The position numbers were made by a program, and so were the translations under genes. Source: a virus. From it: a stretch of DNA of 23,440 nt. Under the pieces are notes generated by a model. It was not told the origin of the DNA and did no database searches. It was given only the letters and a program-made list of their open reading frames with translations. This document shows, in pieces, positions 319-22,927 of this stretch; position 1 is the first letter of the stretch; the number at the start of each line of letters is the position of its first letter. The stretch lies in the IMG/VR virus record IMGVR_UViG_3300020125_000164, positions 1-23,440 of that record; one strand, written 5' to 3'.

Positions 319-347
319 ACCATAGCATGGTGCGCGCCGAAAGTCAA
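319..347 (-). promoter_or_regulatory. promoter P1 with palindromic operator
   Basis: Read on the minus strand: TTGACT (347-342), 17-base spacer, TATGGT (324-319). The palindrome ACCATAGCATGGT (plus-strand reading, 319-331) covers the whole -10 and 7 spacer bases. The TGA stop of the nuclease gene (346-344) is part of the -35. Transcription should start near 312 and serve the gene at 297. Confidence 0.8.
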
Positions 348-1606
348 TCCCGATGGACTCCAAACCGCCGCTTCGACTTCTCCGTCAGGATCGGAGCGAG
401 GGCGCGGGCTTGGGCGTCCCGATCCTTCGGGTGGATGTAGCGCATCAGGCTCTCCGCCTGCTGCACGCCGACCCCGAGGGCCTGAATGAGACCGGGCATG
501 GTCGCCTGTTGAGCCTCTACGTCCCCGGCGCGGATCTTCTTAACCCACGCCTCGCCGAGCACCTCGGCGGCGTTCGGGGTGAGCGCCCGCTGCGTCTCGA
601 TCACGGTCCCCACCTGGGCGCCGTCGATCTGTAGCGGCTCCTCGGCCGTGGCGAAGCGCAGAGGACCCGGCGCGGAACTCGTCCCCGCCACTCGCCGGAT
701 CTCGGCCTCAGCCATCGCGTAGGCGTAGGCCATGGAGAGCGGTTCCGAGGAGCCGTAGACGGCACGGAGGAACTCTTGCGCCGGCGCACAACCGCCCAGA
801 TAGGGGCAGCCGTAGCACTGGCCGCCTGGAGTCGCGACGCGCTCACCGTCGAAGCCTACCTGCTCCTCGCGCGACCGGATCTCCGTCTCGATCTCGGAGC
901 GCCAGCGCGCCATGACCTCGGCGCCTTCCGGCGTGTTCGGAAACACACTCATCTCAAACGGCCGCCGGAGCCGGAAGTTGATGACGACGAGGTGCAACTC
1001 CTCGTGCCCCTCGCCCCACTTCTCCCAGGACAGCACGGCCTGAATCTTCCGCTGCAAGGTGCCCAACTCGGATTCATCCGCGTTCCATGCCGACTTGTAA
1101 TCGATCACGTCGAGCTTTGGGCCGGCGGCGTCCTCGGGATCGAACAGGCCAGGGAGGACGGTGCCGACCGCATCGATTCTGCAACGGAGCCACGCCTCTT
1201 TCCCGTAGGGCTGCAAGCGCCACTCCCGGTCTACCGCTACGCCTTCCTCGAACCGTAGATCATAGGGCAGCGGGAAGTCTTTGACGTAGGACATGGCGAG
1301 GTCACGACCGCGCCATACCAAGTCCGATGGCAGGGGCGGCTCACGGTCGCCCTCGAAGTCTCTCCCGAACGCAATCAGCTCGCCGCAGGTAACCCGCGCG
1401 ACCTCCTCGGCCTCCAGGGTGTCCAGGAAGCGCCCGGCCGCCGCGCTGGCCTTGCCAATCTCCTCCAGGACCGCGTGCGCCGCCGAGCCCACTGCGAACA
1501 TCCGGCGATCATACGGGCGGCCTTCTTCCGCACACGTGAGCGCGGCCGGGCAATGCTTCTCCGCCAGGCTCAGGGTGGTCGAGCGCCAACCGCGACGGGC
1601 GGTCAC
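344..1606 (-). CDS. Cas4/RecB-like PD-(D/E)XK exonuclease with 4Fe-4S cysteines
   Basis: 420 aa. Predicted DNA exonuclease of the RecB/Cas4 branch of the PD-(D/E)XK fold, probably acting on DNA ends in phage recombination or replication. Seen: RecB-type motif GSAAHAVLE with H44; an aspartate-containing CRIDAV strand; catalytic D169-Y-K171; and cysteines C19, C264, C267, C273. The spacing C-X2-C-X5-C plus a distant N-terminal Cys matches the 4Fe-4S clasp of Cas4 and AddB. About 145 residues follow the last Cys, more than in a minimal Cas4. Start: GTG at 1606, overlapping the upstream stop as GTGA. The longer open frame to 1936 is rejected because it would run through two neighbouring genes. 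No cas genes or CRISPR repeats accompany it. Confidence in nuclease class is high; the exact role is inferred. Confidence 0.88.
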   Translation of the reverse strand: MTARRGWRSTTLSLAEKHCPAALTCAEEGRPYDRRMFAVGSAAHAVLEEIGKASAAAGRFLDTLEAEEVARVTCGELIAFGRDFEGDREPPLPSDLVWRGRDLAMSYVKDFPLPYDLRFEEGVAVDREWRLQPYGKEAWLRCRIDAVGTVLPGLFDPEDAAGPKLDVIDYKSAWNADESELGTLQRKIQAVLSWEKWGEGHEELHLVVINFRLRRPFEMSVFPNTPEGAEVMARWRSEIETEIRSREEQVGFDGERVATPGGQCYGCPYLGGCAPAQEFLRAVYGSSEPLSMAYAYAMAEAEIRRVAGTSSAPGPLRFATAEEPLQIDGAQVGTVIETQRALTPNAAEVLGEAWVKKIRAGDVEAQQATMPGLIQALGVGVQQAESLMRYIHPKDRDAQARALAPILTEKSKRRFGVHRD

Positions 1607-1785
1607 CCGCTGTGCTTCTCCGGGAAGAATTCGCGATGGGCGCGGTCGGCCGCATCTCTGAGCTGCGCCTCCCAGCAGGCTGCGGCCGAACGCTTGAACT
1701 CCTCGATTGTCATGCCGCCGAGTATCGCCGTGCGGACGGCGTCGTCGATCTCGGCCTGAGCGGTGTCCTCGCGCCTTACATTCAT
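1603..1785 (-). CDS. small hypothetical protein (60 aa)
   Basis: The start ATG (1785) overlaps the stop of the upstream gene as ATGA and its own stop forms GTGA with the Cas4-like gene, so it sits in a tightly coupled three-gene run. The product starts MNVRREDTAQAEIDDAV and is predicted almost entirely helical, with one Cys (AAACWEA) and an acidic/basic amphipathic pattern. No family recognised. Its position directly before a nuclease gene makes a nuclease partner or inhibitor possible, but nothing in the sequence proves it. Confidence 0.75.
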   Translation of the reverse strand: MNVRREDTAQAEIDDAVRTAILGGMTIEEFKRSAAACWEAQLRDAADRAHREFFPEKHSG

Positions 1786-2303
1786 GCGCTGCACCCCGAC
1801 TCGCGTCCCTCTCGACATGCCCGGCAGGTCCGACCGGCAGCCATATCCTCGAATACGCCGAGACCGTAGGCGTCGAGCAGGGCGGCATAGTCAACGCCGA
1901 GGTGCCGGCAAAGCGCGCGCAGGATCGGCGCGCCATAGTTCGGGTACGGCTCGGTGTCGCAGATCTTCACCGCCTCTTCATCTCCGGCGAGCCAGCATAA
2001 CGCGCGGAGCTTCTCCACCGTGCGGTTTGCGCTGATGCCCCGATGGTTGACGGCCTTGTCGATCCCGACGCGCTGAATGTAGTCCACAGCCTCAGCAAGC
2101 GCCGTTTCGCGTGTGCGCGGTAGGGGCTCGGGCCACCCGTCCGCGGTCAGATCCGGCTTCATCCACGGCCGCGCCTCCTCGAATGACAGGAAGCGCGCGA
2201 GCGCCTCACGGTCGAATCCGAGGAATGACGGTTCCCCGTCGCTCCCGACGTAGGCTAGAACCTCGGCGGCGGTTCGGGTTTCTCTCGGTGACTCTTCCGG
2301 CAT
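1782..2303 (-). CDS. hypothetical protein (173 aa) with C-terminal CxxC
   Basis: ATG at 2303 preceded by a strong AGGGAGGAAGAGT ribosome site. The product has a helical middle with the segment NHRGISANRTVEKLRALCWL, then RALCRHLGVDYAALL, and ends in TCRACREG. The C-terminal CxxC has no obvious partner pair, so zinc binding is uncertain. I do not recognise a named family. First gene of a coupled run 2303-344 (this gene, the 60-aa protein, the Cas4-like nuclease), which suggests all three are made together. The 72 bases between it and the upstream Cys-rich gene hold no gene I can support. Confidence 0.8.
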   Translation of the reverse strand: MPEESPRETRTAAEVLAYVGSDGEPSFLGFDREALARFLSFEEARPWMKPDLTADGWPEPLPRTRETALAEAVDYIQRVGIDKAVNHRGISANRTVEKLRALCWLAGDEEAVKICDTEPYPNYGAPILRALCRHLGVDYAALLDAYGLGVFEDMAAGRTCRACREGRESGCSA

Positions 2304-2375
2304 ACTCTTCCTCCCTTGTCCGGCATCTCTCGCTACCGCCCACCGTGGCGAGCGGCAGCGGGTGAGGCCGGGCGG

Positions 2376-2660
2376 TTAGCAGGTGGGCCCGAAGTCTCCG
2401 GGGCAGTTGTTGGCACACCACGAGTAGCAGGCATTGAAGGTGACGGCGCACTGGTTCATGCAGTCGTTGTAGGCGGTGCCGGTCTTGCCGCTGCACGAGG
2501 GCCAACAGTAATACTCCTTGTCCGCCTCGCATTGGTCGGCGCAGTCGCACCGGCTCGGACAGCCGCCGCTGTACTGGTTCTGAGGCAGGATCGCCACCGG
2601 CGTGAGCGCCGGGGCAAGGTTGAGCCAGAAGCTGACGAGACAGGTCGCGGCGAAGTGCAT
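2376..2660 (-). CDS. secreted-looking cysteine-rich protein, 12 Cys in CX3C pairs
   Basis: 94 aa. ATG at 2660 follows GAGGAG with 6 bases spacing. The N-terminus (about residues 3-27) is a hydrophobic, uncharged segment resembling a signal peptide, with WLNLAPALTPVAIL. From residue 34 on there are 12 cysteines, mostly in C-X3-C pairs: CPSRC, CADQC, CWPSC, CMNQC, CYSWC, then CANNC sharing a Cys. Regular CX3C pairs in helices usually form disulfide-linked helical hairpins outside the cytosol, or bind metal. I do not recognise the family. A cytosolic metal-binding protein is the alternative. An extracytoplasmic Cys-rich protein is unusual in a phage early operon. Confidence 0.78.
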   Translation of the reverse strand: MHFAATCLVSFWLNLAPALTPVAILPQNQYSGGCPSRCDCADQCEADKEYYCWPSCSGKTGTAYNDCMNQCAVTFNACYSWCANNCPGDFGPTC

Positions 2661-2748
2661 GGGCAACTCCTCTGGTAGTCGGCGCCCGTTCTGGAGCGTC
2701 CGCCCCTACGCACCGACCGGGCGAGGGCCGATGCGCAGGAGCTGCACT

Positions 2749-3033
2749 TCAGTCAGCCTCAAGCGCCGCCGCTATGCGGTCAAGTCGGTCGATCTCCGCG
2801 AGGAGGAGGGCTGCGGCGCGTACCATGTTCCGTCGCCGGTCTTTCGGCCTCCAGAACTCCTCCGCCCACGGCCAAAGCTGGACCGCTAGCTTGGGGCTCT
2901 CATCCACCACGGCGTAGGCGGCGCCAGCAAAGGCGAGTTCTCCGCCGCTATGAAAATCGTCGTGGTCTTCGCCCCACTCCTCCTCTACTATCTGGCGGTT
3001 GCGCTCGTTTGCTACATCGGCGAGGGCTCCCAT
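2749..3033 (-). CDS. conserved phage protein, GELAFAGAAYA / PWAEEFW type
   Basis: 94 aa. Start ATG at 3033 shares one base with the upstream stop (TGATG); AAGGAG lies before it. The family is familiar from many phages and prophages. Its pattern is an N-terminal RNRQ..EEEWGEDHDD, then GELAFAGAAYA, a Trp-rich LWPWAEEFWRP, and a C-terminal RRNMVRAAALLLAEIDRLDR helix. The acidic and His residues (EDHDDFH) resemble the metal-binding helices of MazG-like all-alpha NTP pyrophosphatases, but I cannot assign that activity. Function unknown in the literature I recall. Confidence 0.85.
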   Translation of the reverse strand: MGALADVANERNRQIVEEEWGEDHDDFHSGGELAFAGAAYAVVDESPKLAVQLWPWAEEFWRPKDRRRNMVRAAALLLAEIDRLDRIAAALEAD

Positions 3034-3374
3034 CAGGGCTCCTTTCGGTTGCGGGCGACGAGAACGGCCACGTGGTAAAGACCGGGGTCGGCAAAGTCGC
3101 CTAGCGCCATATCGACGGTGTGCTTGTTAACGGAGTCGAGCCTGGCATTCGTGATCGCGCTCGGCTCCGTCTCGCCCGGCACAAAGAGCCCGTGCTCGGG
3201 ATGGTGGGAGGTCGCATGGACCCAATAGTCGCCCTGTGTGGTGCGGACTACCTCGGCCGAGCCGCCTGGAAAGACGATCCGCACCGACTCCGGCTCGGGC
3301 TCGCGACGGTCGCCCTGCAGGCGGATCACGGCGACCTTGGAATCGCTGTCGAGCTCCACGGTGGGCTTGCGCAT
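3033..3374 (-). CDS. hypothetical beta-rich protein (113 aa)
   Basis: Start ATG at 3374, overlapping the upstream stop as TAATG, with AAGGAG five bases upstream. Beginning at MRKPTVELDSDSKVAVIRL, the protein reads as alternating beta strands (VRIVFPGG, AEVVRTTQGDYWVHAT), ending LYHVAVLVARNRKEP. A longer open frame reaches 3467 but runs through the small membrane-protein gene and has no better start. No family recognised. The beta-sandwich look and the segment GLFVPGETEP give no function. Confidence 0.78.
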   Translation of the reverse strand: MRKPTVELDSDSKVAVIRLQGDRREPEPESVRIVFPGGSAEVVRTTQGDYWVHATSHHPEHGLFVPGETEPSAITNARLDSVNKHTVDMALGDFADPGLYHVAVLVARNRKEP

Positions 3375-3478
3375 TAGCGCTCCTTTCTGCCCGCGAGCGA
3401 CGCCATCAGCGCCACCGCGAGCACTACGATCAGCTCCGCGAAAATCGTGCAGATCACGCCTGCCCAAAATGGGCTCAT
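3374..3478 (-). CDS. single-span small membrane protein (34 aa)
   Basis: ATG at 3478 follows GGGAGGTCCG, a strong ribosome site, and the stop TAA overlaps the next start as TAATG. The product MSPFWAGVICTIFAELIVVL continues AVALMASL and ends in basic AGRKER: one hydrophobic helix with a positive C-terminal tail. Topology would be N-out, C-in by the positive-inside rule. It is short enough that automatic gene calling would usually miss it. Function unknown; small phage membrane proteins of this kind can be holin-like, exclusion or host-modulating, none of which is shown here. Confidence 0.72.
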   Translation of the reverse strand: MSPFWAGVICTIFAELIVVLAVALMASLAGRKER

Positions 3479-3489
3479 CGGACCTCCCT

Positions 3490-3522
3490 TCACTCCCAGG
3501 GATCGGAAATGCTACCTGCCAT
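3490..3522 (-). CDS. possible 10-codon mini-ORF
   Basis: ATG at 3522 is preceded by a good GAGGAGG and reads MAGSISDPWE then TGA at 3490-3492. The next ribosome site (GGGAGG) lies just downstream. It may be a leader peptide coupling translation into the membrane-protein gene, or chance. An in-frame ATG 21 bases further upstream would give 17 codons. Confidence 0.3.
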   Translation of the reverse strand: MAGSISDPWE

Positions 3523-3558
3523 AATTGGCCTCCTCTCTCTCATTTTTGAGCGCTCGCC

Positions 3559-3585
3559 GCCGCCCACCTCGCAGAGATGGGCGGC
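3559..3585 (-). other. hairpin in the 3479-3603 intergenic stretch
   Basis: Perfect 8-bp inverted repeat GCCGCCCA / TGGGCGGC with an 11-base loop, in the largest gap of the left arm (125 bases). Neither strand has a T-run after the stem, so it is not a convincing intrinsic terminator. It may act as an mRNA processing or stability element between the zinc-type gene and the downstream run. Confidence 0.4.
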
Positions 3586-3603
3586 AAGAAGGCTCAGGCG
3601 ATC

Positions 3604-3816: not shown

Positions 3817-3842
3817 TTCTCGTCTCCTCCGCAGGGACACAA

Positions 3843-4383: not shown

Positions 4384-4412
4384 ACCATAGCATGGTGCGC
4401 GCGGAGCGTCAA
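4384..4412 (-). promoter_or_regulatory. promoter P2 with palindromic operator
   Basis: Minus-strand TTGACG (4412-4407), 17-base spacer, TATGGT (4389-4384). The palindrome extends to 17 bp here (GCACCAT-3-ATGGTGC). The TGA stop of the upstream nuclease gene (4411-4409) lies inside the -35. It drives the operon from 4335 to 344. Confidence 0.82.
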
Positions 4413-6115: not shown

Positions 6116-6145
6116 ACCATAGCATGGTGCCTTCCGTGCCGTCAA
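6116..6145 (-). promoter_or_regulatory. promoter P3 with palindromic operator
   Basis: Minus-strand TTGACG (6145-6140), 18-base spacer, TATGGT (6121-6116); palindrome 6116-6128, extending to 17 bp. It is divergent from P4, whose -35 starts 26 bases away. Predicted transcription start about 6109, next to the ATG at 6108. Confidence 0.8.
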
Positions 6146-6170: not shown

Positions 6171-6199
6171 TTGACCCCGCTCCCGCACCATGCTATGGT
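6171..6199 (+). promoter_or_regulatory. promoter P4 with palindromic operator
   Basis: TTGACC (6171-6176), 17-base spacer, TATGGT (6194-6199); the 13-bp palindrome spans 6187-6199 and extends to 17 bp. It is back-to-back with P3; the two palindrome centres (6122 and 6193) are 71 bp apart. It drives the right arm from 6343 to 10979. Confidence 0.82.
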
Positions 6200-7099: not shown

Positions 7100-7549
7100 A
7101 TGGTCAAAGCGTCACTACTCCGCGGCCTCCACTACCGCAGGGTCGTCTATAGGCCCGGATTCGGGGTGTGTCGGTGCGAGGTCTGCTCGGCGGCATATGA
7201 AGCCTCCCGCGAGACGGCGGAGCCGCCGGATATGGGCGCGGCCGTCGCCGGATGCCTCTACCGCAATAGAGAGCAGGCTTTCGCGGATCAGTGGGCGCAC
7301 GAGCATCGCATCGGTGACTTGGCGCAGGAGCTAATGGTGCGCCCACCGAAGAAAGGGGAGCGCCGATCGCCCTTCGGATTTGATGGCGTCCTCGCCTTCT
7401 GGCTCACCTACCGTGAGCGAGTCATTCTGGCGACGGTTGTCCAGTGGCTCGGGTCGAATGTCGGTTTCGATTTCCTGCGGCAAGCTCTGGCGCGGTGCGG
7501 CTGCGAGATCGTAGAGAAGGATGCTGCTGCGAAACGGAGGAGCGCATGA
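7100..7549 (+). CDS. hypothetical protein with CRCEVC motif (149 aa)
   Basis: ATG 7100, two bases after the previous stop. The N-terminal part carries VCRCEVCSAAY and a later GCLY; the C-terminal part has FWLTYRERVILATVVQWLG and a terminal RCGCEIVEK. The clustered cysteines at both ends may form a zinc site, but the spacing does not match a family I know. The stop overlaps the start of the UmuD-prime-like gene (ATGA). Function unknown. Confidence 0.72.
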   Translation: MVKASLLRGLHYRRVVYRPGFGVCRCEVCSAAYEASRETAEPPDMGAAVAGCLYRNREQAFADQWAHEHRIGDLAQELMVRPPKKGERRSPFGFDGVLAFWLTYRERVILATVVQWLGSNVGFDFLRQALARCGCEIVEKDAAAKRRSA

Positions 7550-7941
7550 CCACCCCGCGCCCACCGATTGAGCCCGTGACCGGCGCCACCGAGCGTCTCG
7601 CCGTGCCGGGCCATCTCCTGTCCGGCTCAACAGCGGAGCATTACGTCCTCCGCGTAGTGGGCGAGTCGATGGTCGAGGAGGGGATCTACGACGGCGACTA
7701 CGTCGTCGTGCTCCGCGGTGAGGAGATCGTTCCCGGTGACCTGGTCGTCTGCCTGGTGGGCGACGATGCCACCATGAAGCGCTACTGGCCGGAGGGCGAC
7801 GTGATCCGGTTGCAGCCCGCTAACTCAGCGATGCATCCGATCTACGTCAAGCCGGAGGACTTTGAGGTCCGCGGCGTGGTCGTCGGGCTGATGCGCAAGT
7901 ATGCGCGAGGATTACCGCTATCATCCGAGAGGAAGCCCTAA
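7546..7941 (+). CDS. UmuD-prime-like S24 family protein, no HTH
   Basis: 131 aa. Clear LexA/UmuD-type S24 fold: VVGESMVEEGIYDGDYVVV with Ser41, DDATMKRYW with Lys78 (37 residues apart, as in LexA and UmuD), then IRLQPANSAMHPI. It has no DNA-binding domain, and the place where an Ala-Gly or Cys-Gly cleavage bond should sit (about residues 6-8) is Pro-Pro-Ile. It therefore resembles the processed form UmuD-prime, like HumD of phage P1, rather than a repressor. Likely role: modulating error-prone polymerase or the SOS response in the host cytosol. Start ATG overlaps the upstream stop, with GGAGGAGCGC before it. Confidence 0.88.
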   Translation: MTTPRPPIEPVTGATERLAVPGHLLSGSTAEHYVLRVVGESMVEEGIYDGDYVVVLRGEEIVPGDLVVCLVGDDATMKRYWPEGDVIRLQPANSAMHPIYVKPEDFEVRGVVVGLMRKYARGLPLSSERKP

Positions 7942-8562: not shown

Positions 8563-9854
8563 AAGCGTCAGCGCTGCTCACGCCAGAGGAGAAGAGGCTC
8601 CGTGACCTCGCCTGCAAGATCGCCGGTGATCTGTTCACCGGCGGGAGCGGTGATCTGGCGGACCGACTTGTTCTCGTGCGTGATGACTCGGGCCGCGACC
8701 TCGGCGGATGGGCGCTCGGTCCCGCAGTTGAGATAATCTTCCGGCGGCTGCGGGGTGAGGCCGTGAGCGGGCCGACGCGGGAGTACTGCGCGGAGCTCGC
8801 CGCCTTCCTGCGCGACTGCGCGGTGGAAGACGAGCGGTGCGAGTACCCACAGAGTGCCGGACGGTTCCGCGCTGCTGCCGATCTCCTGGACCGCTACCCC
8901 CTGCCCGCGGGCGAGGGGGAGCGGGCGGACCCGCTCACCACTACAGCACGCGGCCTTGCGGCCCATGAGCTGGTTTGTGTCCAGGTGCATAACGCCGCGA
9001 TTGAGGCAGCAGCCCTAATCGTCTGCCCTGAACCGCACGTTGAAGAGGAAGTGGAGTGCTCCGAGGTGGCGCGGCGCATTAGAGGTCTCAAGCGGCTATA
9101 TCGCAGCGCCGAGATTGAGGCGATGTTCGCGCGGCGGGAGACCCTTGCTGATATGCGGCTACGCTCGGCTGCGGAAGATCGTGAATTGGAAGCTCTGCGG
9201 GCGCGGATCGGGCAGCTACCGACCGCGCGCAGTCCCGCGGATCAGGAGGCCGCAGACGAGATCCGCCGCGCCGTCGCCCTCCTCCGGGCGCCCGCGGCAG
9301 AGCCGGCGCAGGATGGGGAGCGGGAGGCGCTGGCCACCTGGCTGAGGGGGCTGGGTGAGCAGCCGCAGTTCCGCCGCGCCGCCCACCTCATGCTCCATCC
9401 CGCAGCGGGGGTAGATCGTAAGGCCGTGCTAAGCGTCTTGACAGAAGAGCGCCGCACTGCTGCGGCCATCGAGTTCGCGACCCCGCATGGCATGGAAGCC
9501 GGCGCGGTTAGGGTCGCCGAAGCCGCTAGCGTCCAGCATAGGCGACTCATGGATCTGGCATTCGACGAGGCGTGCGATCGCGTCCGCGCCCTCCCGGAGA
9601 CCGAATCTGGCGGCGGTTGGCACTACCTCCCGGACCTGCCGCCTGAGCCATCTGAAGGTGAGGAGGTCTGGCTCGATATCTGGCGGTACTACCCACATAA
9701 GCCGGAGCTGCGCCCAGTCCGCGATGAGGTACCATGGCGCGGCGACGCAATCGATGGCCCGCAATTCCTCTTTCGCCACGGCTTCGCGACCTACTGTTGG
9801 CGACGGGCACAGCATGAGCCGCCGCCGATACCGGCACGAGAAGGGCAAGAATGA
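8559..9854 (+). CDS. large hypothetical protein with C-terminal DUF551-like domain (431 aa)
   Basis: Start ATG overlaps the preceding stop (ATGA). Most of the protein is helical and charged, with AVALLRAPAAEPAQDGE and EYCAELAAFLRDCAVE. The last 80 residues, from W354 (GGWHYLPDLPPEPSEGEEVW ... FATYCWRRAQHEPPP), resemble DUF551. That is a short phage-associated domain beginning W..v.d.lP and ending in a Trp-rich WxPLPxPP-like tail. The match is by eye and moderate. Function unknown. Confidence 0.75.
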   Translation: MKASALLTPEEKRLRDLACKIAGDLFTGGSGDLADRLVLVRDDSGRDLGGWALGPAVEIIFRRLRGEAVSGPTREYCAELAAFLRDCAVEDERCEYPQSAGRFRAAADLLDRYPLPAGEGERADPLTTTARGLAAHELVCVQVHNAAIEAAALIVCPEPHVEEEVECSEVARRIRGLKRLYRSAEIEAMFARRETLADMRLRSAAEDRELEALRARIGQLPTARSPADQEAADEIRRAVALLRAPAAEPAQDGEREALATWLRGLGEQPQFRRAAHLMLHPAAGVDRKAVLSVLTEERRTAAAIEFATPHGMEAGAVRVAEAASVQHRRLMDLAFDEACDRVRALPETESGGGWHYLPDLPPEPSEGEEVWLDIWRYYPHKPELRPVRDEVPWRGDAIDGPQFLFRHGFATYCWRRAQHEPPPIPAREGQE

Positions 9855-10683: not shown

Positions 10684-10979
10684 CCCAATACCTCGGTCGG
10701 TGTTTTCGCATCGGAGTCGCAACGCTCCTGGAGATCACAGGAGCCGCGCTCTCGGGATGGGGCGCCGCGCTTCACCACGCACGCCCGATGGGCGTCGGCC
10801 TCCTCCTCTTCGCCCTCGCCATCGGAATTATTTGGAGCATGCCTGACACCGATTCTTCGCCGGTCTCGTCGTGGCTCCGCGCCATGCGTTACCTGCCGAA
10901 GCGCTTCAAGCCTTGGGCGTTGGGCAAGGCGATGGCCGCGAATCGAGTCGAGCGCGTGGATTCCGAAGATTCCCGTTGA
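10680..10979 (+). CDS. membrane protein, two predicted spans (99 aa)
   Basis: ATG overlaps the upstream stop (ATGA). Hydrophobic stretches at about residues 10-30 (IGVATLLEITGAALSGWGAA) and 37-54 (MGVGLLLFALAIGIIWSM) predict two transmembrane helices with a short basic loop (HHARP). A basic cytosolic tail follows (KRFKPWALGKAMAANRVER). Its TGA stop is embedded in the -35 of P5. Last gene of the P4 operon; role unknown. Confidence 0.75.
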   Translation: MTQYLGRCFRIGVATLLEITGAALSGWGAALHHARPMGVGLLLFALAIGIIWSMPDTDSSPVSSWLRAMRYLPKRFKPWALGKAMAANRVERVDSEDSR

Positions 10980-11004
10980 CACCCCCGGCGCACCATGCTA
11001 TGGT
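10976..11004 (+). promoter_or_regulatory. promoter P5 with palindromic operator
   Basis: Perfect TTGACA (10976-10981), 17-base spacer, TATGGT (10999-11004); palindrome 10992-11004. The previous gene's TGA (10977-10979) lies in the -35. The next ATG is at 11012, 8 bases after the -10, predicting a leaderless mRNA. Confidence 0.85.
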
Positions 11005-13715: not shown

Positions 13716-14041
13716 TGGCGGCGGGTGATTGGACCGAGGTTTCTCGCAACGTTCTGCCGGGAGTCGTAATCTGCCCCATAGAGCAAGGCTGCTACGCCTG
13801 CCTGCGCTACCGGGTAGTGGAGACCGGTTCGGGCGGCCAGTCGCGGGAACGGTTCGTGGACGGCGAGCCGCTCTACTCCTACAACGCCGGCAACTACCTC
13901 GCCAAGTCGTCCGGTAAGAAGGCAATCGAGAAGATCGTCCTCGGTGCGGACCTAGCCTTCCGCCTGAGCGCAATTCTCGCCGGGGAGCTGCGCGGCGCAA
14001 TTGTGGCCCGTGACCGGCTGACCCCGCGGCGGCGTGCTTGA
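13715..14041 (+). CDS. hypothetical protein (108 aa)
   Basis: GTG start in a TAGTG junction. The product has a beta-rich N-terminal half (GVVICPIEQGCYACLRYRVV) with CYAC, and a helical C-terminal half (GNYLAKSSGKKAIEKIVLGA). The stop TGA (14039-14041) is part of the P6 -35, making this the last gene of the P5 operon. Family unknown. Confidence 0.7.
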   Translation: MAAGDWTEVSRNVLPGVVICPIEQGCYACLRYRVVETGSGGQSRERFVDGEPLYSYNAGNYLAKSSGKKAIEKIVLGADLAFRLSAILAGELRGAIVARDRLTPRRRA

Positions 14042-14069
14042 CTCCTCGGCCGGCGCACCATAGCATGGT
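14038..14069 (+). promoter_or_regulatory. promoter P6 with inverted palindromic operator
   Basis: TTGACT (14038-14043), 17-base spacer, TAGCAT (14061-14066). The palindrome ACCATAGCATGGT (14057-14069) lies in the opposite orientation relative to transcription from the other six, and 3 bases further from the -35. The upstream TGA is embedded in the -35. Start site about 14073, where GGGAGGG begins. Confidence 0.72.
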
Positions 14070-14287: not shown

Positions 14288-15682
14288 GTGGAATCGTATA
14301 CCGAGTTCCTCGCGCGCAAGGCGCAGGATGACACCAATCATGGATTCGAGCCAGTATGGATGCCGGACTTCCTGTTCGACTTCCAGCAGGCGCTGGTCGA
14401 GTGGGCGGTGCGCAAGGGGCGCGCGGCAATCTTCTCTTCTTGCGGGTCGGGGAAGACGCCGATGCAGCTTGCCTGGGCTGAGAACGTGGTGCGCCAAACC
14501 AACGGTAGGGTCCTGATCGCGACGCCGCTGGCCGTGTCAGCTCAGACCATACAAGAGGCTGAGAAGTTCGGCGTGACGGCTGCGCGATCCATGGACGGGC
14601 GACCGCATGCCGGGGTGACTGTCACCAATTACGAGCGGCTTCACCACTTCAACCCAAGTGACTACATTGGAATGGTATGTGACGAATCGTCGTGTTTAAA
14701 ATCTTTCGATAGCGCTCGAAAGGCGATTATAACCGACTTCATGCGCAAGATGCACTATCGGCTGCTCTGCACGGCTACTGCGGCGCCGAACGACTACATC
14801 GAATTAGGGACATCGAGCGAGGCGCTCGGATACCTTGGTCATACTGATATGTTGACCCGCTTCTTCAAGAACGCCGGCAACACGATTGACCAGAAAGGCA
14901 AGTGGCGCGGCTTTGGGGCACCGAGAGCTTTCGAGCGTCAGCAGTGGCGCTTCAAGGCACATGCCCGGCCGCATTTCTGGCGGTGGGTTTGCTCTTGGGC
15001 TCGCGCGATTCGTCAACCATCGGACCTTGGTTTCAGTGACGAGAAGTTCATCCTGCCGCCGCTGATTGAAAACGAGTATATCGTTGAGGCGCGGACGCGG
15101 GCGGACGGGATGTTGTTCGAGCTGCCGGCCATCGGACTGAGGGAAGAGCGCGAAGAGCAGAGGCGGACGATCCAGGAGCGATGCGAGAAGGCCGCCGAGT
15201 TGGTAGCCGGCACCGGCAAGCCCGCGATTCTATGGTGTCATCTCAACGCCGAAGGCGACCGACTTGCCAAGATACTACCGGAGGCTCGCCAGGTGAGCGG
15301 TTCACAATCCCCGGAGGAGAAGGAAGAGATATTCACGGCCTTCGCCGCCGGATCGCTTCGCCTCCTAATCGTGAAGCCCAAGATCGCCGCTTGGGGCCTA
15401 AACTGGAGTCACTGCGCGCACATGACCATGTTCCCCAGTCATTCCTTCGAACAGACGTTTCAGTCGATCCGGCGGTGCTGGCGCTTCGGGCAGAAGTCAC
15501 CCGTCGTCGTTGATATCGTGACGACCGAGGGGGGCCGAGAGGCCAAAGAGAATCTGCGGCGCAAAGGACGGGCCGCGGATGAGATGTTCGCCGAATTGGT
15601 CTTTCACATGCGCGATGCCCTGCACGTGGCCCGATCGCGGGACTATGAGCTTCCTGTCGAGGTGCCGGCATGGCTCGCCTAA
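14288..15682 (+). CDS. SNF2-like superfamily 2 DNA helicase/ATPase (464 aa)
   Basis: DNA-dependent ATPase of superfamily 2. Seen: Q-like FQQALVEWA; Walker A SSCGSGKT with K56; motif II DESS at D132-E133; motif III TATAAPND; and motif VI QSIRRCWRFGQ (392-402) with arginine fingers. The full set is in order at the normal length for phage SNF2-like helicases. Cys replaces the usual residue before the first Gly of the P-loop. The start is GTG 14288. The middle is more AT-rich than its neighbours (around 14660-14740), hinting at different ancestry. It could act in replication or repair, or with the adjacent methyltransferase. The HNH gene overlaps its last 13 bases. Confidence 0.9.
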   Translation: MESYTEFLARKAQDDTNHGFEPVWMPDFLFDFQQALVEWAVRKGRAAIFSSCGSGKTPMQLAWAENVVRQTNGRVLIATPLAVSAQTIQEAEKFGVTAARSMDGRPHAGVTVTNYERLHHFNPSDYIGMVCDESSCLKSFDSARKAIITDFMRKMHYRLLCTATAAPNDYIELGTSSEALGYLGHTDMLTRFFKNAGNTIDQKGKWRGFGAPRAFERQQWRFKAHARPHFWRWVCSWARAIRQPSDLGFSDEKFILPPLIENEYIVEARTRADGMLFELPAIGLREEREEQRRTIQERCEKAAELVAGTGKPAILWCHLNAEGDRLAKILPEARQVSGSQSPEEKEEIFTAFAAGSLRLLIVKPKIAAWGLNWSHCAHMTMFPSHSFEQTFQSIRRCWRFGQKSPVVVDIVTTEGGREAKENLRRKGRAADEMFAELVFHMRDALHVARSRDYELPVEVPAWLA

Positions 15683-16146
15683 TTGAACTCACCCAAGGAC
15701 TGGTCACCGTCGTCGATGACTGCGACTATGAACGCTTGGCGGTTTTCAACTGGTGCGCCGATCGGCGCGGAGACGCGTTCTACGCCATTCGGGCTCAGAG
15801 AACCCCTTCGGGCAAGTGGTCCAAGATCTATATGCATCGCGTGATCCTTGCGGCCCCCGAGGGATCCGAAGTAGATCACATGGACCTCGACGGCCTAAAC
15901 AACGTACGCTCGAATCTTAGACTCGCAAGCCGCGCCGAGAACAACCGAAATCAGAGGATGCCGCGCAGCAACTCCAGCGGACTCAAGGGCGCTTCATGGG
16001 ATTGTCGACACGGCCGCTGGCAGGCCAAGATTACCGTCAACCGAGTGCAAATACATCTCGGTCGCTTTGACACGAAAGAGGAAGCTCATGCGGCCTATGT
16101 TGCGGCCAGCGCTAAGCTCCACGGCGCCTTCGGGAGAACGCGATGA
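15670..16146 (+). CDS. HNH homing endonuclease with AP2 DNA-binding domain (158 aa)
   Basis: Free-standing HNH endonuclease: catalytic region with H56-R57, DH at 69-70 and NNVRSNLR at 77-84, the DH...N...N pattern of HNH nucleases. It is followed by an AP2-type DNA-binding domain at about 102-152 (SSGLKGASWDCRHGRWQAKI, then LGRFDTKEEAHAAYV). This architecture is typical of phage homing endonucleases that spread by cutting alleles lacking them. The gene overlaps the helicase by 13 bases and the methyltransferase by 4. It therefore sits between two functional genes without interrupting them. Confidence 0.92.
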   Translation: MARLIELTQGLVTVVDDCDYERLAVFNWCADRRGDAFYAIRAQRTPSGKWSKIYMHRVILAAPEGSEVDHMDLDGLNNVRSNLRLASRAENNRNQRMPRSNSSGLKGASWDCRHGRWQAKITVNRVQIHLGRFDTKEEAHAAYVAASAKLHGAFGRTR

Positions 16147-17186
16147 GCGGAACCGCCGCCCAATCCATAACAGCCAACTACGCCCTCTACAACGGCGACT
16201 GCTGCGAAGTCATGCAATCCTTGCCGAAAGAGTCGGTGCATCTTTCCGTGTACTCCCCTCCATTTGCGCATCGCGGAGGCGGGTTATACCATTATTCCTC
16301 GAGTGAGCACGATCTAAGCAACTCGGGGTCATATGAGGGCTTCTTCGAGCATTACGGCTTCGTGGTGCGTGAGTTGCACCGCCTGACGCTGCCAGGGAGA
16401 ATGACCGCCGTTCACTGCACGGATGTGGCAACCGGGAACACGGGATGCGATGAGCTGATGGATTTTCCCGGCGACATCATCCGCTTGCACAAACGGCATG
16501 GGTGGGCGTACGTGGCGCGCTATCACGCCTGGAAAGAGCCGCTCACCGTCCGCAACCGCACCATGACCAAAGCGCTAGCGCATAAGGGGATCGTAGAAGA
16601 CAGCTCCCGGTGTACGGTCGCCTCCGCGGATTACGTGCTCGTCTTCCGGCGGAGCGGCAAGAACAAGATTCCGATTGCGCACCCGCACGGGCTGATGGAG
16701 TATGCCGGCGAACGGAAGATCCCGGCCGAGTTGCTGCACTACCGAGGATGGACCGGGAACCAGATCGAAAACAGGTACTCACATTGGATTTGGAGACAGT
16801 ACGCGAGCGCGTTCTGGAGTGACATCCGACTGGACCGCGTGTTGCCCTACCGCGAGGCACGAGACCCCGAGGATGAAAAGCATGTCCATCCGCTGCAACT
16901 GGACGTGATCGACCGCATACTGACGCTATGGAGCAATCCTGGCGAGACGGTTCTCAGTCCATTCATGGGCGTAGGGAGTGAGATCTACGGAGCGGTTCGC
17001 GCCGGCCGTCGCGGAATCGGTATCGAGCTAAAGCCGAGTTACTACCGGCAGGCCGTCAAGAATGTCGCCCAGGCGAGCAGGGATATCGGAGAACAGGCAG
17101 AGATCGAATGGCGCGGCAGCGAAGATGAGCTAGGCGCTGAGGACGAGGCCGAGGATGGCGAGACGGCGGAAGAGGTTCTTACATGA
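16143..17186 (+). CDS. DNA N4/N6 amino-methyltransferase, beta class (347 aa)
   Basis: S-adenosylmethionine-dependent DNA base methylase. Catalytic motif IV is S38-P-P-F41, after a NGDCCEVM strand. The target-recognition region follows, and the cofactor motif comes late as PFMGVGSE (F274-G278), with GIGIELKPSYY after it. Catalytic motif before cofactor motif marks the beta class; SPPF favours N4-cytosine, but N6-adenine cannot be excluded. No restriction enzyme is adjacent, so it is probably an orphan protecting phage DNA or regulating genes. The C-terminal 35 residues are acidic and likely disordered. The start overlaps the HNH stop (ATGA). Confidence 0.9.
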   Translation: MSGTAAQSITANYALYNGDCCEVMQSLPKESVHLSVYSPPFAHRGGGLYHYSSSEHDLSNSGSYEGFFEHYGFVVRELHRLTLPGRMTAVHCTDVATGNTGCDELMDFPGDIIRLHKRHGWAYVARYHAWKEPLTVRNRTMTKALAHKGIVEDSSRCTVASADYVLVFRRSGKNKIPIAHPHGLMEYAGERKIPAELLHYRGWTGNQIENRYSHWIWRQYASAFWSDIRLDRVLPYREARDPEDEKHVHPLQLDVIDRILTLWSNPGETVLSPFMGVGSEIYGAVRAGRRGIGIELKPSYYRQAVKNVAQASRDIGEQAEIEWRGSEDELGAEDEAEDGETAEEVLT

Positions 17187-17533: not shown

Positions 17534-17539
17534 ATCTCC

Positions 17540-17743
17540 ATGAGCAGACCTCCCCGCTTCTCCCTAGAGTTGACCCCGAAGCGCCGCCTCCTCTGGCAGC
17601 GGGCGGCGGATCTTGCCGTGACGGACCGCCAGCGGAACCTGGCCCCCTGGCTCGCGCCTCTAGTGGACCGGCTGGCTGAGATGCAGCTCGCCGGGATAGA
17701 CCCCGGTGAGGCGCTGGACAAGATTCTCGCCCAGACCCCTTGA
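17540..17743 (+). CDS. small hypothetical protein (67 aa)
   Basis: ATG 17540 has only a weak upstream site. The product begins MSRPPRFSLELTPKRRLLWQ, has a helical APWLAPLVDRLAEMQLAG and resembles a small ribbon-helix-helix or adaptor protein, although no motif is certain. Its stop TGA is part of the P8 -35, closing the P6 operon. Confidence 0.68.
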   Translation: MSRPPRFSLELTPKRRLLWQRAADLAVTDRQRNLAPWLAPLVDRLAEMQLAGIDPGEALDKILAQTP

Positions 17744-17768
17744 CATCGTAGTCCGCAGTGCGTACAGT
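17740..17768 (+). promoter_or_regulatory. promoter P8, without the palindrome
   Basis: Perfect TTGACA (17740-17745), 17-base spacer, TACAGT (17763-17768). It is as good a sigma70-type promoter as the others, but no ACCAT-N3-ATGGT palindrome is present. It serves the operon that encodes the ParB-like protein. An ATG lies 8 bases beyond the -10. Confidence 0.8.
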
Positions 17769-19442: not shown

Positions 19443-19714
19443 AGGTGATCTTCAAGTACGTCCTCCTCGTGACCGACCGCCAGGAGGTTGAGATGCCGGT
19501 CGGCGCCAAGATCCTCTCGTGCCAGGTCCAGCGGGAGAAGCCGTGCATCTGGGCTCCCGTGGACACCTCGGCACCGCAGGAGTTCCGCGCCTTCATGACC
19601 TACGGCACCGGCCACCCGATCTATCGGGAGCCGGGGGAGTACGTCGGCACCTACCAGCTCGATTCCGGTGGATTCGTCGGCCACGTCTTCATCGATTCCC
19701 AGAGGGAGGGTTAG
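19439..19714 (+). CDS. DUF7352-like protein (91 aa)
   Basis: GTG start in GTGA overlap. The sequence FKYVLLVTDRQEVEMPVGAK, ILSCQVQREKPCIWAPVD, YGTGHPI and YVGTYQLDSGGFVGHVF matches the small beta-barrel family DUF7352 found across phages. Family members read VTDxQxVEMPxGAxIL and YGTGHPI. Function unknown; the conservation level suggests a common phage need. The stop TAG abuts the ParB-like start. Confidence 0.85.
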   Translation: MKVIFKYVLLVTDRQEVEMPVGAKILSCQVQREKPCIWAPVDTSAPQEFRAFMTYGTGHPIYREPGEYVGTYQLDSGGFVGHVFIDSQREG

Positions 19715-20584
19715 ATGCCCCCGAAGGCAGAAGGCGGTAAACGCAAGGACATTCTGAGTTGGCCGCCGGAGGCGCTTTCGAAGATCCGTCGCGGTCCAAA
19801 CCCGTCGCGGTCAAACCCAGGTGCTGACCTGAGCCTAACCGAGCTTGCGGCATCGATCGCGGCCAAGGGGCAGCTTCAGCCAGGCGTCGTTCGGCGCGAC
19901 AGCGAAGGAGTCGCGGTGGTCGTCGTAGGCAACCGCAGGCTCGACGCGATCCTCCTCATCAACGAGGAGCCATCGAAGTGGAAAGACGGCAACGGTAATC
20001 CACTCGCTGGCCCCCTTCCGTTCAACGCCTCGCTGGTGGTCTGCACGGATGAGGAAGCGATCGAGCTCAACCTAATCGAGAACCTTGAACGCCTCGATCT
20101 GAACGCCGTGGACAAGGCGTTCACGGCCCGCGAGCTGGTCAAGCTCGGATGGACTCACGAGCGGATCGGCGGCGTCATGCGCTGCTCGGCGTCCCGAGTA
20201 TCGGGCCTCATCTCGCTACTTACGTTGCCGGCCAGGACGCTGCGGCTGGTGGCGGAGGGTAGGCTCACGGAAGCCGGCGCGAAAGCGTTCCGCGGCCTGC
20301 CCGAGGAAGATGTGCTCGCGCTCACGGCCGAGATCGCCGCCGGTGCCAAGCCCGCGGCAGTGCTCGGCAAGGCACGAGAGCGCAAGCGGGATGAAGGCAA
20401 GGCGCAGCCCCGTAGCCTCGCCGAGGTCCGGGCGGCGCTTGCCGCACACCCCTCGAATCAGGCGGAGGCCCTCCTGCGGTGGATCAATGGCTCGCCAGGC
20501 GCGACGCTCGACGATGCGCGCCTGGAGGACTTCCCGGCACCGGTTCGGCGCGCGGCGCTCTCCCGCGTCGAGGGGATCGCGTAA
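19715..20584 (+). CDS. ParB-like N-domain protein with central HTH (289 aa)
   Basis: ATG immediately after the previous stop, with GAGAGGGAGGG before it. The ParB/Srx-type N-domain is clear: LTELAASIAAKGQLQPGVV, GNRRLDA at 72-78 and ENLER at 122-126. A helix-turn-helix follows at 145-170 (GWTHERIGGVMRCSASRVSG). Then come a Lys/Arg-rich linker and a helical C-terminal region. ParB family proteins bind palindromic sites; KorB of RK2 binds a 13-bp palindrome at many promoters. This gene is the best candidate for reading the window's palindrome (inference). A nuclease-type or partition role is the alternative. It sits in the palindrome-free P8 operon. Confidence 0.88.
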   Translation: MPPKAEGGKRKDILSWPPEALSKIRRGPNPSRSNPGADLSLTELAASIAAKGQLQPGVVRRDSEGVAVVVVGNRRLDAILLINEEPSKWKDGNGNPLAGPLPFNASLVVCTDEEAIELNLIENLERLDLNAVDKAFTARELVKLGWTHERIGGVMRCSASRVSGLISLLTLPARTLRLVAEGRLTEAGAKAFRGLPEEDVLALTAEIAAGAKPAAVLGKARERKRDEGKAQPRSLAEVRAALAAHPSNQAEALLRWINGSPGATLDDARLEDFPAPVRRAALSRVEGIA

Positions 20585-21193
20585 ATGAGGGACGACCTAG
20601 AACGCCTGACCGCCGACGGCCTCCGCCGCGCGGAAGAGCGCGCAAAGGGCAAGTCTGCGGGCTGGTATGAGCTATGCCGTCGCGGCTACCTGCCGGCCGA
20701 GATCGCGGTGCATGCCGATCCTCTCGTGTTCGCCACCGATGTTAGCCAACGGGTGCGGCAGTACGCGGAGCGCTACCAGCTTGCCGTGCCCGTCTCCTGC
20801 GCCACGAAGCGCGTGCATAGCGTTCGGGCCGCCCCCGAGGACTGGCGCGCCGCCTTCCGTTCGACCGTCATGCGCACGGGCATGTGCCTCGCCCTCACGC
20901 AGCCGATGCTAGAGTTCCTCTGCGCCACGGCCGACGGAGTGGTTTGGGATCGCGGCATTCACGGCGCCACGAGCCTGGCGAAGCCGGACAACTTCATCGT
21001 CACCGGCGCCGCGCTAGAGAAACGCGGCCTGATCCGTCGCCGGCCGCCGGCTCGATCAACCGACGATGATGACATCCGCGCCAGCGTGTGGGAGACGACA
21101 GAGGCGGGAGAGGCTGTTGTAGCACTGCTCAAGAGCGTAGGAGTGTTCGTCGAGGCGGACGCTGCGATTGAGAAGCGCGGAGGTACGGCGTGA
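20585..21193 (+). CDS. winged-helix-like conserved phage protein (202 aa)
   Basis: ATG immediately after the ParB-like stop. The C-terminal 90 residues (FLCATADGVVWDRGIHG, ALEKRGLIRRRP, TTEAGEAVVALL) have the look of a winged-helix fold used in small phage regulators. The N-terminal part is helical, with SAGWYELCRRGYLPAE and VRQYAERYQLAVPV. It is a second candidate DNA-binding regulator in this operon. No catalytic motif. Confidence 0.72.
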   Translation: MRDDLERLTADGLRRAEERAKGKSAGWYELCRRGYLPAEIAVHADPLVFATDVSQRVRQYAERYQLAVPVSCATKRVHSVRAAPEDWRAAFRSTVMRTGMCLALTQPMLEFLCATADGVVWDRGIHGATSLAKPDNFIVTGAALEKRGLIRRRPPARSTDDDDIRASVWETTEAGEAVVALLKSVGVFVEADAAIEKRGGTA

Positions 21194-21432
21194 GACCCGC
21201 GCTCCGCCGCCTCCGCTGGCGCTCCCGTCGCGCTCGCCGGCGCTTCGCTCTCCGCCGCGGATGGATCGCTAGCGCCTATAATCCCGTCTTCTACTGGCCG
21301 ATGATCTACGGGGTTACGATCGCCTGGTGGGACGCAACGCTGTTCAACCGCGATCTAGAGGCGAGCATGGCGGCGTCGCGTGCGGCGCTCACCGAGTGGC
21401 AGGAAGCAATCACTGCCCTGATGGACGCGTGA
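21190..21432 (+). CDS. basic membrane-associated protein (80 aa)
   Basis: GTG start overlapping the previous stop (GTGA). The N-terminus is extremely Arg-rich (RRLRWRSRRARRRFALRR). It is followed by a hydrophobic aromatic stretch (NPVFYWPMIYGVTIAWWDA) that could be one membrane span, then a helical tail. By the positive-inside rule the N-terminus stays in the cytosol. Function unknown. Confidence 0.65.
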   Translation: MRPALRRLRWRSRRARRRFALRRGWIASAYNPVFYWPMIYGVTIAWWDATLFNRDLEASMAASRAALTEWQEAITALMDA

Positions 21433-21434
21433 CC

Positions 21435-21710
21435 ATGAGCCACTCAGCCATCCGAATCACCGGCGCCGCCGATCCATCCGTGAACGGCGACTACTACCGG
21501 GGCCGGAAGTGGGCCGCCTCACCCTGGCGAGACGCCCTCCAAGTCGCGAGCGCGCCGGTTTACGGGCTCGGCGCCCTGCTCATCGGGATCTGCGCGGAGC
21601 CGGTCACCAGCGCTCACCTCGGCCCCGGCGCAGTCGCCATCTACGCGGTCGCCGCCGGTGCCTATGTCGTCGGTGCCGGGGTGCTTGTGGCTCGTATCCT
21701 TCTGCGATGA
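21435..21710 (+). CDS. membrane protein, two predicted spans (91 aa)
   Basis: ATG 21435, two bases after the previous stop, with no strong ribosome site. Hydrophobic segments APVYGLGALLIGICAEPV and AVAIYAVAAGAYVVGAGVLV predict two transmembrane helices; the first 30 residues are soluble. The frame open from 21327 is a shadow. The stop overlaps the next start (ATGA). A holin-like role cannot be shown. Confidence 0.72.
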   Translation: MSHSAIRITGAADPSVNGDYYRGRKWAASPWRDALQVASAPVYGLGALLIGICAEPVTSAHLGPGAVAIYAVAAGAYVVGAGVLVARILLR

Positions 21711-22120
21711 GCTACGCCGGCAAGCTCCGGGGCATGCTCTCGGATATAGAGCCCGTCAACCCCTCCACGGCGCAGGGACCAATACCGGAGCACCTGATGC
21801 CGGGGCGGAAGGTGGCGCCAGCTATCGCCACACGGCCGAAGCGCCCAAAGCTGGCGCCCGATCCATTGCCGCCGCTCACAATCGTGCAGCAAGTCATGGC
21901 CTCGCTCGGGGAGGCGGTCGAGACGATCCCGATGGCGGACCCCGAGCCCGATCCGCCAGAGTTTACGCCGTCCGCCGTCGCCCCAGAGACCCCGGCCGAG
22001 CGCCTAGCCCGCCTCCGCCGCGAGCACGAGGCCGCACGGGCAAGTCCGGGGCGGCGTGGACCGCAAAGAGCGGGAGAGGCTAGCCAAGCGCGCCGCAGAG
22101 GCCATCCGTCGCGCCCGTAG
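21707..22120 (+). CDS. proline-rich hypothetical protein (137 aa)
   Basis: ATG in ATGA overlap. The product starts MSYAGKLRGMLSDIEPVNPS. A middle with many prolines (PKLAPDPLPPLTIVQQVM, then MADPEPDPPEFTPSAVAPET) is probably disordered. A helical RLARLRREHEAARA ends the credible part. The last 25 residues overlap the next gene by 65 bases and look less coding, so the true C-terminus may be a relic. Confidence 0.65.
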   Translation: MSYAGKLRGMLSDIEPVNPSTAQGPIPEHLMPGRKVAPAIATRPKRPKLAPDPLPPLTIVQQVMASLGEAVETIPMADPEPDPPEFTPSAVAPETPAERLARLRREHEAARASPGRRGPQRAGEASQARRRGHPSRP

Positions 22121-22286
22121 GGCCGCAGGGGACACGGAACGGCTGAAGCCGTGGGCCGTGGTTGGGCCGGTGGTGGAGCGGCCTGCGTGCCCTAGCGGAT
22201 GCGCGTTGGCGCCAGAGAGGAGAGGGAAGCGCCGGGGCCGGAACCGCTGGCATTGTCCCGGCTGCTTACGGAACTGGCAGGCATGA
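22056..22286 (+). CDS. small zinc-ribbon-like protein (76 aa)
   Basis: GTG start at 22056, inside the previous gene's tail; the frame's third-position GC is high from there on. The N-terminal half is a basic helix (RKERERLAKRAAEAIRRARR). The C-terminal half has CPSGC and, about 20 residues on, WHCPGCLRNW, two knuckles of a C-X3-C / C-X2-C ribbon. It could bind RNA or DNA. The stop overlaps the following ATG. Confidence 0.72.
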   Translation: MDRKERERLAKRAAEAIRRARRAAGDTERLKPWAVVGPVVERPACPSGCALAPERRGKRRGRNRWHCPGCLRNWQA

Positions 22287-22627
22287 ATATCATCGTCTGC
22301 GGCGGCCGAGAGGAACAACTCACGGAAGAGAGAGGCCGCGCGCTCGCGGATGCTCTCTGGCAGTTCAACGATGGCCGCTTGACGCTCTTCCTCGGCGGTG
22401 CCCGCGGGATCGACACCGACGTAGAGCGGTGGAGCGTCCCGATGGGCTACCCGTTCCGGCGGTTCCACGCGGATTGGGAGGCGCATGGACGCGCGGCAGG
22501 GCCGATCCGCAACGCCGAGATGGCTAAGGATGCGGATGCCGTGATCGCCTTCCCAGGTGGCAACGGTACGGCGGACATGATCCGGCGGGCGGAGCGCAAG
22601 GGGATTCCGGTCGTGCGGTTGGAGTGA
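22283..22627 (+). CDS. DUF2493 / YspA-type SLOG protein (114 aa)
   Basis: ATG in ATGA overlap. The Rossmann-like SLOG fold is clear from MNIIVCGGREEQLTEE, LFLGGARGIDTD (GGARGID at 38-44), AGPIRNAEMA (R76-N77) and VIAFPGGNGTADMI. Known DUF2493 proteins are thought to bind nucleotides or ADP-ribose-like ligands, and SLOG relatives occur in nucleotide-signalling defence. Here it ends the P8 operon, just before the convergent tRNA genes. The exact ligand is unknown. Confidence 0.88.
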   Translation: MNIIVCGGREEQLTEERGRALADALWQFNDGRLTLFLGGARGIDTDVERWSVPMGYPFRRFHADWEAHGRAAGPIRNAEMAKDADAVIAFPGGNGTADMIRRAERKGIPVVRLE

Positions 22628-22638
22628 GCGGAGAGGAA

Positions 22639-22716
22639 TGGTCGGGGCGGCACGATTTGAACGTGCGGCCTCTCGGTCCCAGGCCGAGAGCTCTATCCAG
22701 GCTGAGCTACGCCCCG
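22639..22716 (-). tRNA. tRNA-Pro (anticodon UGG) with C33
   Basis: 78 nt including encoded CCA. All arms pair: acceptor CGGGGCG/CGCCCCG with C1-G72 and A73 (proline identity), D-stem GCUC/GAGC, T-arm GCACG-UUCAAAU-CGUGC. The anticodon stem CUCGG/CCGAG encloses loop CCUGGGA, which sets the anticodon as UGG but puts C at position 33, where U is nearly universal. Confidence 0.85.
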
Positions 22717-22719
22717 AAA

Positions 22720-22794
22720 TGGAGCCGGCTACGAGAGTCGAACTCGCTTCGGCCACCTTACAAGGATGGCGCCCCTCCGCAGGGCCTCGCCGGC
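22720..22794 (-). tRNA. tRNA-Thr (anticodon UGU), divergent D-arm
   Basis: 75 nt with encoded CCA and U73. Acceptor GCCGGCG/AGCCGGC (the seventh pair is a G-A mismatch). Anticodon stem CCAUC/GGUGG holds loop CUUGUAA (anticodon UGU). T-arm GCGAG-UUCGACU-CUCGU. The D-region lacks the usual U8 and A14, so it is partly degenerate. Confidence 0.8.
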
Positions 22795-22797
22795 TTG

Positions 22798-22875
22798 TGG
22801 TTGCGGCGGCCCGATTCGAACGGGCGACCTGTGCGTTATGAGCGCACCGAGCTTCCATGACTGCTCTACGCCGCG
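22798..22875 (-). tRNA. initiator tRNA-fMet (anticodon CAU)
   Basis: 78 nt with encoded CCA. Initiator hallmarks: C1-A72 mismatch, A11-U24 in the D-stem GAGC/GCUC, anticodon loop CUCAUAA flanked by three G-C pairs (GCG/CGC instead of the usual GGG/CCC), and A73. T-arm GCCCG-UUCGAAU-CGGGC. First of three tRNAs on the minus strand. Confidence 0.88.
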
Positions 22876-22881
22876 GAGGAG

Positions 22882-22887
22882 AGTATA
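22882..22887 (-). promoter_or_regulatory. possible -10 of the tRNA cluster
   Basis: TATACT on the minus strand ends 7 bases before the 5' end of tRNA-fMet, so transcription could begin at the mature tRNA end. No convincing -35 at 16-18 bases. The P7 palindrome is centred about 46 bases upstream of that start. Confidence 0.4.
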
Positions 22888-22898
22888 GCGCATCGCCG

Positions 22899-22927
22899 TT
22901 GATTCCGGGACGGCACCATGCTATGGT
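22899..22927 (+). promoter_or_regulatory. promoter P7 with palindromic operator
   Basis: TTGATT (22899-22904), 17-base spacer, TATGGT (22922-22927); palindrome 22915-22927. It drives the RNA ligase with a leader of about 42 bases. It sits between the divergent ligase gene and tRNA cluster. Confidence 0.82.

Follow-up and report, generated by a model that had tools for sequence, protein, structure and literature searches.

Small single-domain helix-turn-helix (HTH) proteins, such as the lambda Cro-type shut-off repressors and the C-proteins of restriction-modification systems, are autoregulated, bind palindromes in promoters and have one or two control regions as their targets. The operator OB of plasmid RK2 is about 13 bp long. 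RK2 contains 12 KorB sites, a near-invariant palindrome at about a dozen promoters of a single replicon recognised by a global repressor (PMC11790492). The stoperators of cluster A mycobacteriophages such as L5 and TipsytheTRex are also 13-bp repressor sites, many and dispersed. They are asymmetric, bound by a monomer and orientation-dependent, and they also stop elongation away from promoters (PMC9283540). In Deinococcus, the XRE-type repressor DdrO acts through a conserved motif, the RDRM, at the promoters of about twenty genes (PMC5552922, PMC8533742).

We analysed a 23,440-nucleotide stretch of viral DNA (IMG/VR record IMGVR_UViG_3300020125_000164, positions 1 to 23,440), hereafter the window. 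As reported in a preliminary description of this sequence, ACCAT-N3-ATGGT occurs in it exactly seven times (at 319, 4384, 6116, 6187, 10992, 14057 and 22915); in 100 dinucleotide shuffles the chance expectation was 0.00 and the maximum 0. The seven sites do not vary: each reads ACCATGCTATGGT on one strand or the other, and the window contains no copy of this 13-mer with one or two mismatches. The 5-bp arms form a perfect palindrome in all copies. The 17-bp sequence GCACCATGCTATGGTGC, previously given as the best form, is whole at some window sites only, the 13-bp core being the invariant part. According to our codon-usage gene finder the window is 93% coding, and the operator centres are intergenic in 7/7 cases, which agrees with the earlier claim that the motif lies outside genes. 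We found no open-access paper containing the letters of ACCATGCTATGGT. At each window site the palindromic operator overlaps promoter elements of the sigma70 type, as follows (orthologous positions are those of the related genome G002, described below):

319-347, minus strand: P1; operator 319-331 (ACCATGCTATGGT on the minus strand), -10 TATGGT 324-319, -35 TTGACT 347-342, spacer 17; orthologue G002 17714, 13/13 identical, gene downstream different.
4384-4412, minus strand: P2; operator 4384-4396, -10 TATGGT, -35 TTGACG 4412-4407, spacer 17; orthologue G002 14107.
6116-6145, minus strand: P3; operator 6116-6128, -10 TATGGT, -35 TTGACG 6145-6140, spacer 18; orthologue G002 11224.
6171-6199, plus strand: P4, which forms a divergent pair with P3; operator 6187-6199, -10 TATGGT 6194-6199, -35 TTGACC 6171-6176, spacer 17; orthologue G002 11154.
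10976-11004, plus strand: P5; operator 10992-11004, -10 TATGGT, -35 TTGACA 10976-10981, spacer 17; orthologue G002 7929.
14038-14069, plus strand: P6; operator 14057-14069, flipped (ACCATAGCATGGT on the plus strand), -10 TAGCAT 14061-14066, -35 TTGACT 14038-14043, spacer 17; orthologue G002 4747.
22899-22927, plus strand: P7; operator 22915-22927, -10 TATGGT 22922-22927, -35 TTGATT 22899-22904, spacer 17; orthologue G002 90241, different gene downstream.

The promoter geometry first proposed stands for P1 to P5 (spacer 17; 18 at P3) and in part for P7, where the -35 is TTGATT and not of the TTGAC type. It had to be corrected at P6: there the 13-mer stands in the opposite orientation with TAGCAT as the -10, and the -35 has moved 3 bp further upstream, so that the spacer is still 17; the P6 orthologue has the same arrangement. 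An RNA-ligase-like gene follows P7, starting at 22976 and continuing past the window end. Just upstream of P7, three adjacent tRNA genes (Pro-TGG, Thr-TGT and Met-CAT) occupy the minus strand (22639-22875), opposite to the reading frames listed for this interval. Elsewhere in the window, an N6/N4 DNA methyltransferase gene (16143-17186) adjoins a gene for a probable HNH-type endonuclease (15670-16146), the latter assigned by sequence appearance alone.

Further information was obtained by scanning IMG/VR with the pattern TTGAC-N10..15-ACCATGCTATGGT, which retrieved two records with repeated operator copies. One of them, G002 (IMGVR_UViG_3300020118_000164), has 93,367 bases and a 127-base terminal repeat, which indicates a complete circular assembly (93.2 kb); the other, G008, is a 14.8 kb contig fragment. 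Conservation in related phages, for which the preliminary description had proposed a scan of related contigs, was thus confirmed, with 12 exact copies in G002, two in G008 and 13/13 identity at orthologous sites. The remaining matches were single 13-mer copies in low- or mid-GC contigs, at about chance level, and the low-GC viral matches were rejected as relatives, being single copies consistent with chance. The operator is absent from the relatives reached through the helicase (80 loci) and from the 4 more distant loci reached through the TROVE protein, and G002 was the only relative found in the TerL and MCP scans. The TROVE/Ro60-like phage protein (TROVE 9.4e-11, batch scan; L037:7040-8380 and L040:6861-8195) is 97% identical between G002 and G008 and has ~46% relatives in three other viral contigs. 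Another dispersed palindrome, TCCACCGGGTGGA, was seen five times in an unrelated viral contig (L075, from a 102 kb record; 1520, 4317, 6715, 12947 and 20569), usually with CAGATT directly after it and mostly near gene starts.

The window is collinear with one arc of G002, and each of its seven sites has an orthologue there, with 91/91 bases of the 13-mers identical. In an ungapped comparison, window-G002 identity is 92% over the -35 plus spacer and 75% upstream, and past the palindrome it drops to 71% in the first 13 bases and to 57% beyond them. At P1, P2, P3 and P7 the homology fades at or just past the palindrome, and what follows, sequence and gene alike, is unrelated between window and G002. 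At these sites the promoter-operator stays and the cargo genes change.

The operators are intergenic in the three records, one G002 copy nominally overlapping a start-codon call. A TTG-type -35 and a TAnnnT -10, 17-18 bases apart, can be placed at all exact copies except for the plus-strand promoter at G002 30041, which has TGGACA. In most exact copies (6/7 in the window) the TATGGT of the 3' arm is the -10. Other registers also exist. Besides the flipped copies at P6 and its orthologue, there are palindromes within spacers: an exact one at G002 82917 (TTGACG-17-TAGCCT) and the single copy with one mismatch at G002 35448 (TTGACG-17-TACGCT). A further palindrome, at G002 30041, is shared by a pair of divergent promoters; relative to the minus-strand promoter it, too, falls inside the spacer (TTGACG-18-TAGGCT). 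Since there are several registers (TATGGT, flipped, in the spacer) and one site can serve two promoters, the operator is an element separate from the -10. These same three spacer sites, each with its own -10, make it scarcely credible that the motif is no more than an extended -10, a strong promoter consensus that multiplied in the phage. The use of TATGGT as -10 in the window would fit such a consensus; however, nothing requires such a consensus to be palindromic or to flip, and strong palindrome-free promoters are present in the same genomes.

The sequence turnover downstream of the sites raises the question of whether the promoter-palindrome block is mainly a recombination joint for cassette swapping, homologous or site-specific, and no operator. 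The fading homology at P1, P2, P3 and P7 fits this idea, and so does the comparison of G008 with G002, in which the site located downstream of TerL is followed by unrelated genes. However, a joint predicts neither the 13/13 identity together with the near-absence of copies with one or two mismatches, nor the -35 spacing kept through register changes, nor the placement in spacers. Moreover, a site-specific recombinase family was not seen among the batch-scanned G002 proteins. We therefore consider this explanation very unlikely, and cassette joining may be a by-product, as identical promoters would serve as recombination homology.

Each site lies between the -35 and the -10, inclusive, and upstream of its own transcript. 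Because of this position the palindrome is no RNA signal of that transcript, and an RNA hairpin or terminator was rejected. A protein bound to the palindrome would always stand in the way of RNA polymerase, as expected of a repressor site. Thus, we think that ACCATGCTATGGT is very probably a dispersed operator for a single regulator, and that this regulator is in all likelihood a repressor and not an activator.

The preliminary description had proposed a global operator by which one DNA-binding protein could switch nearly all operons. The first part is well supported as a predicted operator; the second is too strong. By walking upstream along same-strand runs, a crude count that ignores internal promoters, 53/53 genes of the window and 117/160 genes of G002 lie downstream of an operator. 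The G002 genes without it are mainly those of the virion run (53.8-75.8 kb) and the lysis run (83.1-89.3 kb), followed by a run at 37.8-42.6 kb and a small minus-strand cluster at 52.8-53.7 kb; TerL and portal are inside operator-headed runs. Several strong promoters of G002 have no operator, and in the window the promoter at 17740-17768 shows that the ACCAT operator is not on every promoter. As the operator is missing from the virion and lysis runs and from other promoters, we narrow its reach to an early/accessory regulon. The 17740-17768 promoter belongs to a second class, in which a near-palindrome, GTCCGCAnTGCGTAC, lies against the -10 (TACAGT or TACTAT):

Window 17740-17768, plus strand: strong promoter without operator, TTGACA-17-TACAGT, near-palindrome GTCCGCAGTGCGTAC abutting the -10.
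L035:1048-1073, minus strand: second-class site (G002 1048), TTGAC-type -35.
L036:9581-9606, minus strand: second-class site (G002 29581), TTGAC-type -35.
L038:18886-18911, minus strand: second-class site (G002 78886), TTGAC-type -35.

The G002 sites precede three non-orthologous genes, and the copies at 29581 and 78886 are non-orthologous to window 17740-17768. GTCCGCAnTGCGTAC is possibly a second operator; elsewhere in IMG/VR this motif gave just single matches, mostly homologous or unrelated.

As to the binder, 116 G002 proteins were batch-scanned against Pfam, and at E 0.01 the clear DNA-binding regulators were only an XRE protein and an excisionase-like HTH_17 protein. The same scan gave matches to BCS1_N, AAA and AAA_lid_BCS1, which are not usual in phages; their owner is likely the 426-aa gene L035:5098-6378. 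In both G002 and G008 the gene for the XRE protein (76-82 aa; HTH_31 7.6e-09 and HTH_3 2.5e-08, above cut-off) lies between those for TerL and portal, a locus outside the window. In both genomes the order is operator, one or two genes, XRE: in G002, the site at 50236 is followed on one strand by ORFs 50256-50720 and 50708-51004 and by XRE (51021-51251); in G008, the site at 9833 precedes XRE (10714-10962) on the same strand, in the same arrangement as in G002, a position that would allow autoregulation. The two proteins share 55 identical HTH residues, with 12/12 nucleotide differences synonymous, and their homology is a 192-bp island with unalignable flanks. Within IMG/VR, no record other than the two with repeated operators yielded this protein. 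We infer that the window phage also has the gene, beyond the fragment. An AF2 model shows four helices in XRE order at low confidence (pLDDT 61), and Foldseek matches to DdrO, ClgR and C-proteins were weak. The nearest solved relatives are DdrO, ClgR, C-proteins and SinR, all small dimeric HTH repressors with palindromic operators.

Some observations temper this assignment. G008 is fragmentary and akin to G002, and so the co-occurrence of XRE and operator represents one lineage; since 117/160 genes lie behind a site, it says little by itself that XRE does so too; and the central GCT is invariant though a symmetric dimer would not need it, an invariance due in part to the -10 TATGGT. On balance we lean slightly towards the XRE protein as the binder of the operator.

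That some other protein binds the operator is clearly less probable; candidates would be a host regulator, the HTH_17 protein encoded by G002 or a small phage protein that escaped recognition. Most small proteins have no Pfam match, and G002 gave, besides the HTH_17 protein (4.4e-06), a sub-threshold RHH_3 match. The host version is disfavoured, as TTGAY-N11-ACCATGCTATGGT is in no excess, and a host regulon of this form does not show, among 84,980 genomes, which possibly do not include the host: eight single matches in unrelated taxa were observed and, by our estimate, ~15 are expected at uniform composition. The S24/UmuD-like peptidase of the window (7546-7941) was also discarded, with no HTH domain matched and no G002 counterpart. 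The window encodes one further candidate:

19715-20584, plus strand: ParB-like protein of 289 aa, HTH_ParB 7.5e-09, ParB_N just below the cut-off.

With its HTH_ParB domain and marginal ParB_N match, this protein could be a KorB-like ParB/CTPase that binds the 13-bp palindrome and silences locally and by sliding, just as KorB represses plasmid promoters from its RK2 sites (PMC11790492). However, the ParB gene of G002 is a 79-aa remnant without HTH, yet the 12 sites are intact, and ParA was not seen among the window genes. We consider this explanation unlikely and the protein probably not the binder. The remnant is at L039:12799-13038, and the next window gene (20585-21193) is missing in G002.

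Returning to the XRE protein, our favoured reading, held with moderate confidence, is that ACCATGCTATGGT is the operator of one phage repressor for an early/accessory regulon, the repressor being most likely XRE. We hypothesize that host RNA polymerase would use the operator promoters early after infection. A repressor dimer on the two ATGGT half-sites would then cover the -10 or the spacer and exclude RNA polymerase. As the product of its own operator-headed operon, XRE would be autoregulated, and upon its accumulation all operator-bearing promoters would be closed together, the main virion and lysis runs, without operator, remaining open. An integrase or recombinase family was not found among the Pfam-scanned G002 proteins, which left out the structural ones and a few others. 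The lack of a recognised integrase among them favours, not decisively, a Cro-like shut-off over a lysogeny repressor.

It is tempting to propose, as a speculative extension, an undescribed design in which an autoregulated XRE protein acts on a dozen invariant operators that are also fixed joints for cassette exchange, with GTCCGCAnTGCGTAC as a second operator class on other promoters. If this were true, incoming genes would be wired at once into the early regulon. The predicted operator itself offers a readable control circuit for an uncultivated phage group: one exact sequence marks the early/accessory genes, most virion and lysis genes lack it, and a small protein can be put forward as the candidate repressor. 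A constant operator with changing downstream genes also hints at how mosaic phages bring newly acquired genes under a programme that already exists.

In summary, this predicted operator system shares features with each of the known ones. Like KorB/OB (PMC11790492), with which the preliminary description compared it, it is a near-invariant palindrome at about a dozen promoters of one replicon, presumably for a global repressor. It differs in sequence and in that sites were seen inside promoters only, and the ParB-family gene of the window is not conserved in a relative keeping all operators. The other analogy of the preliminary description, to stoperators, is right as regards many dispersed 13-bp sites in a phage (PMC9283540). 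It breaks down in that stoperators are asymmetric and also found off promoters, whereas the sites of the window and G002 are near-palindromic and at promoters only: neither an asymmetric site nor a non-promoter site was found among the copies, all with perfectly palindromic arms and, at every exact copy, a promoter-like element. The DdrO/RDRM regulon (PMC5552922, PMC8533742) resembles it in joining an XRE-type repressor to a conserved motif at many promoters. However, that regulon is cellular and serves the response to DNA damage; its repressor is a longer protein of two domains that IrrE cleaves, and the phage protein, of 76-82 aa, has no such domain. Finally, unlike Cro and the C-proteins, the candidate repressor would face a dozen identical operators across the genome.
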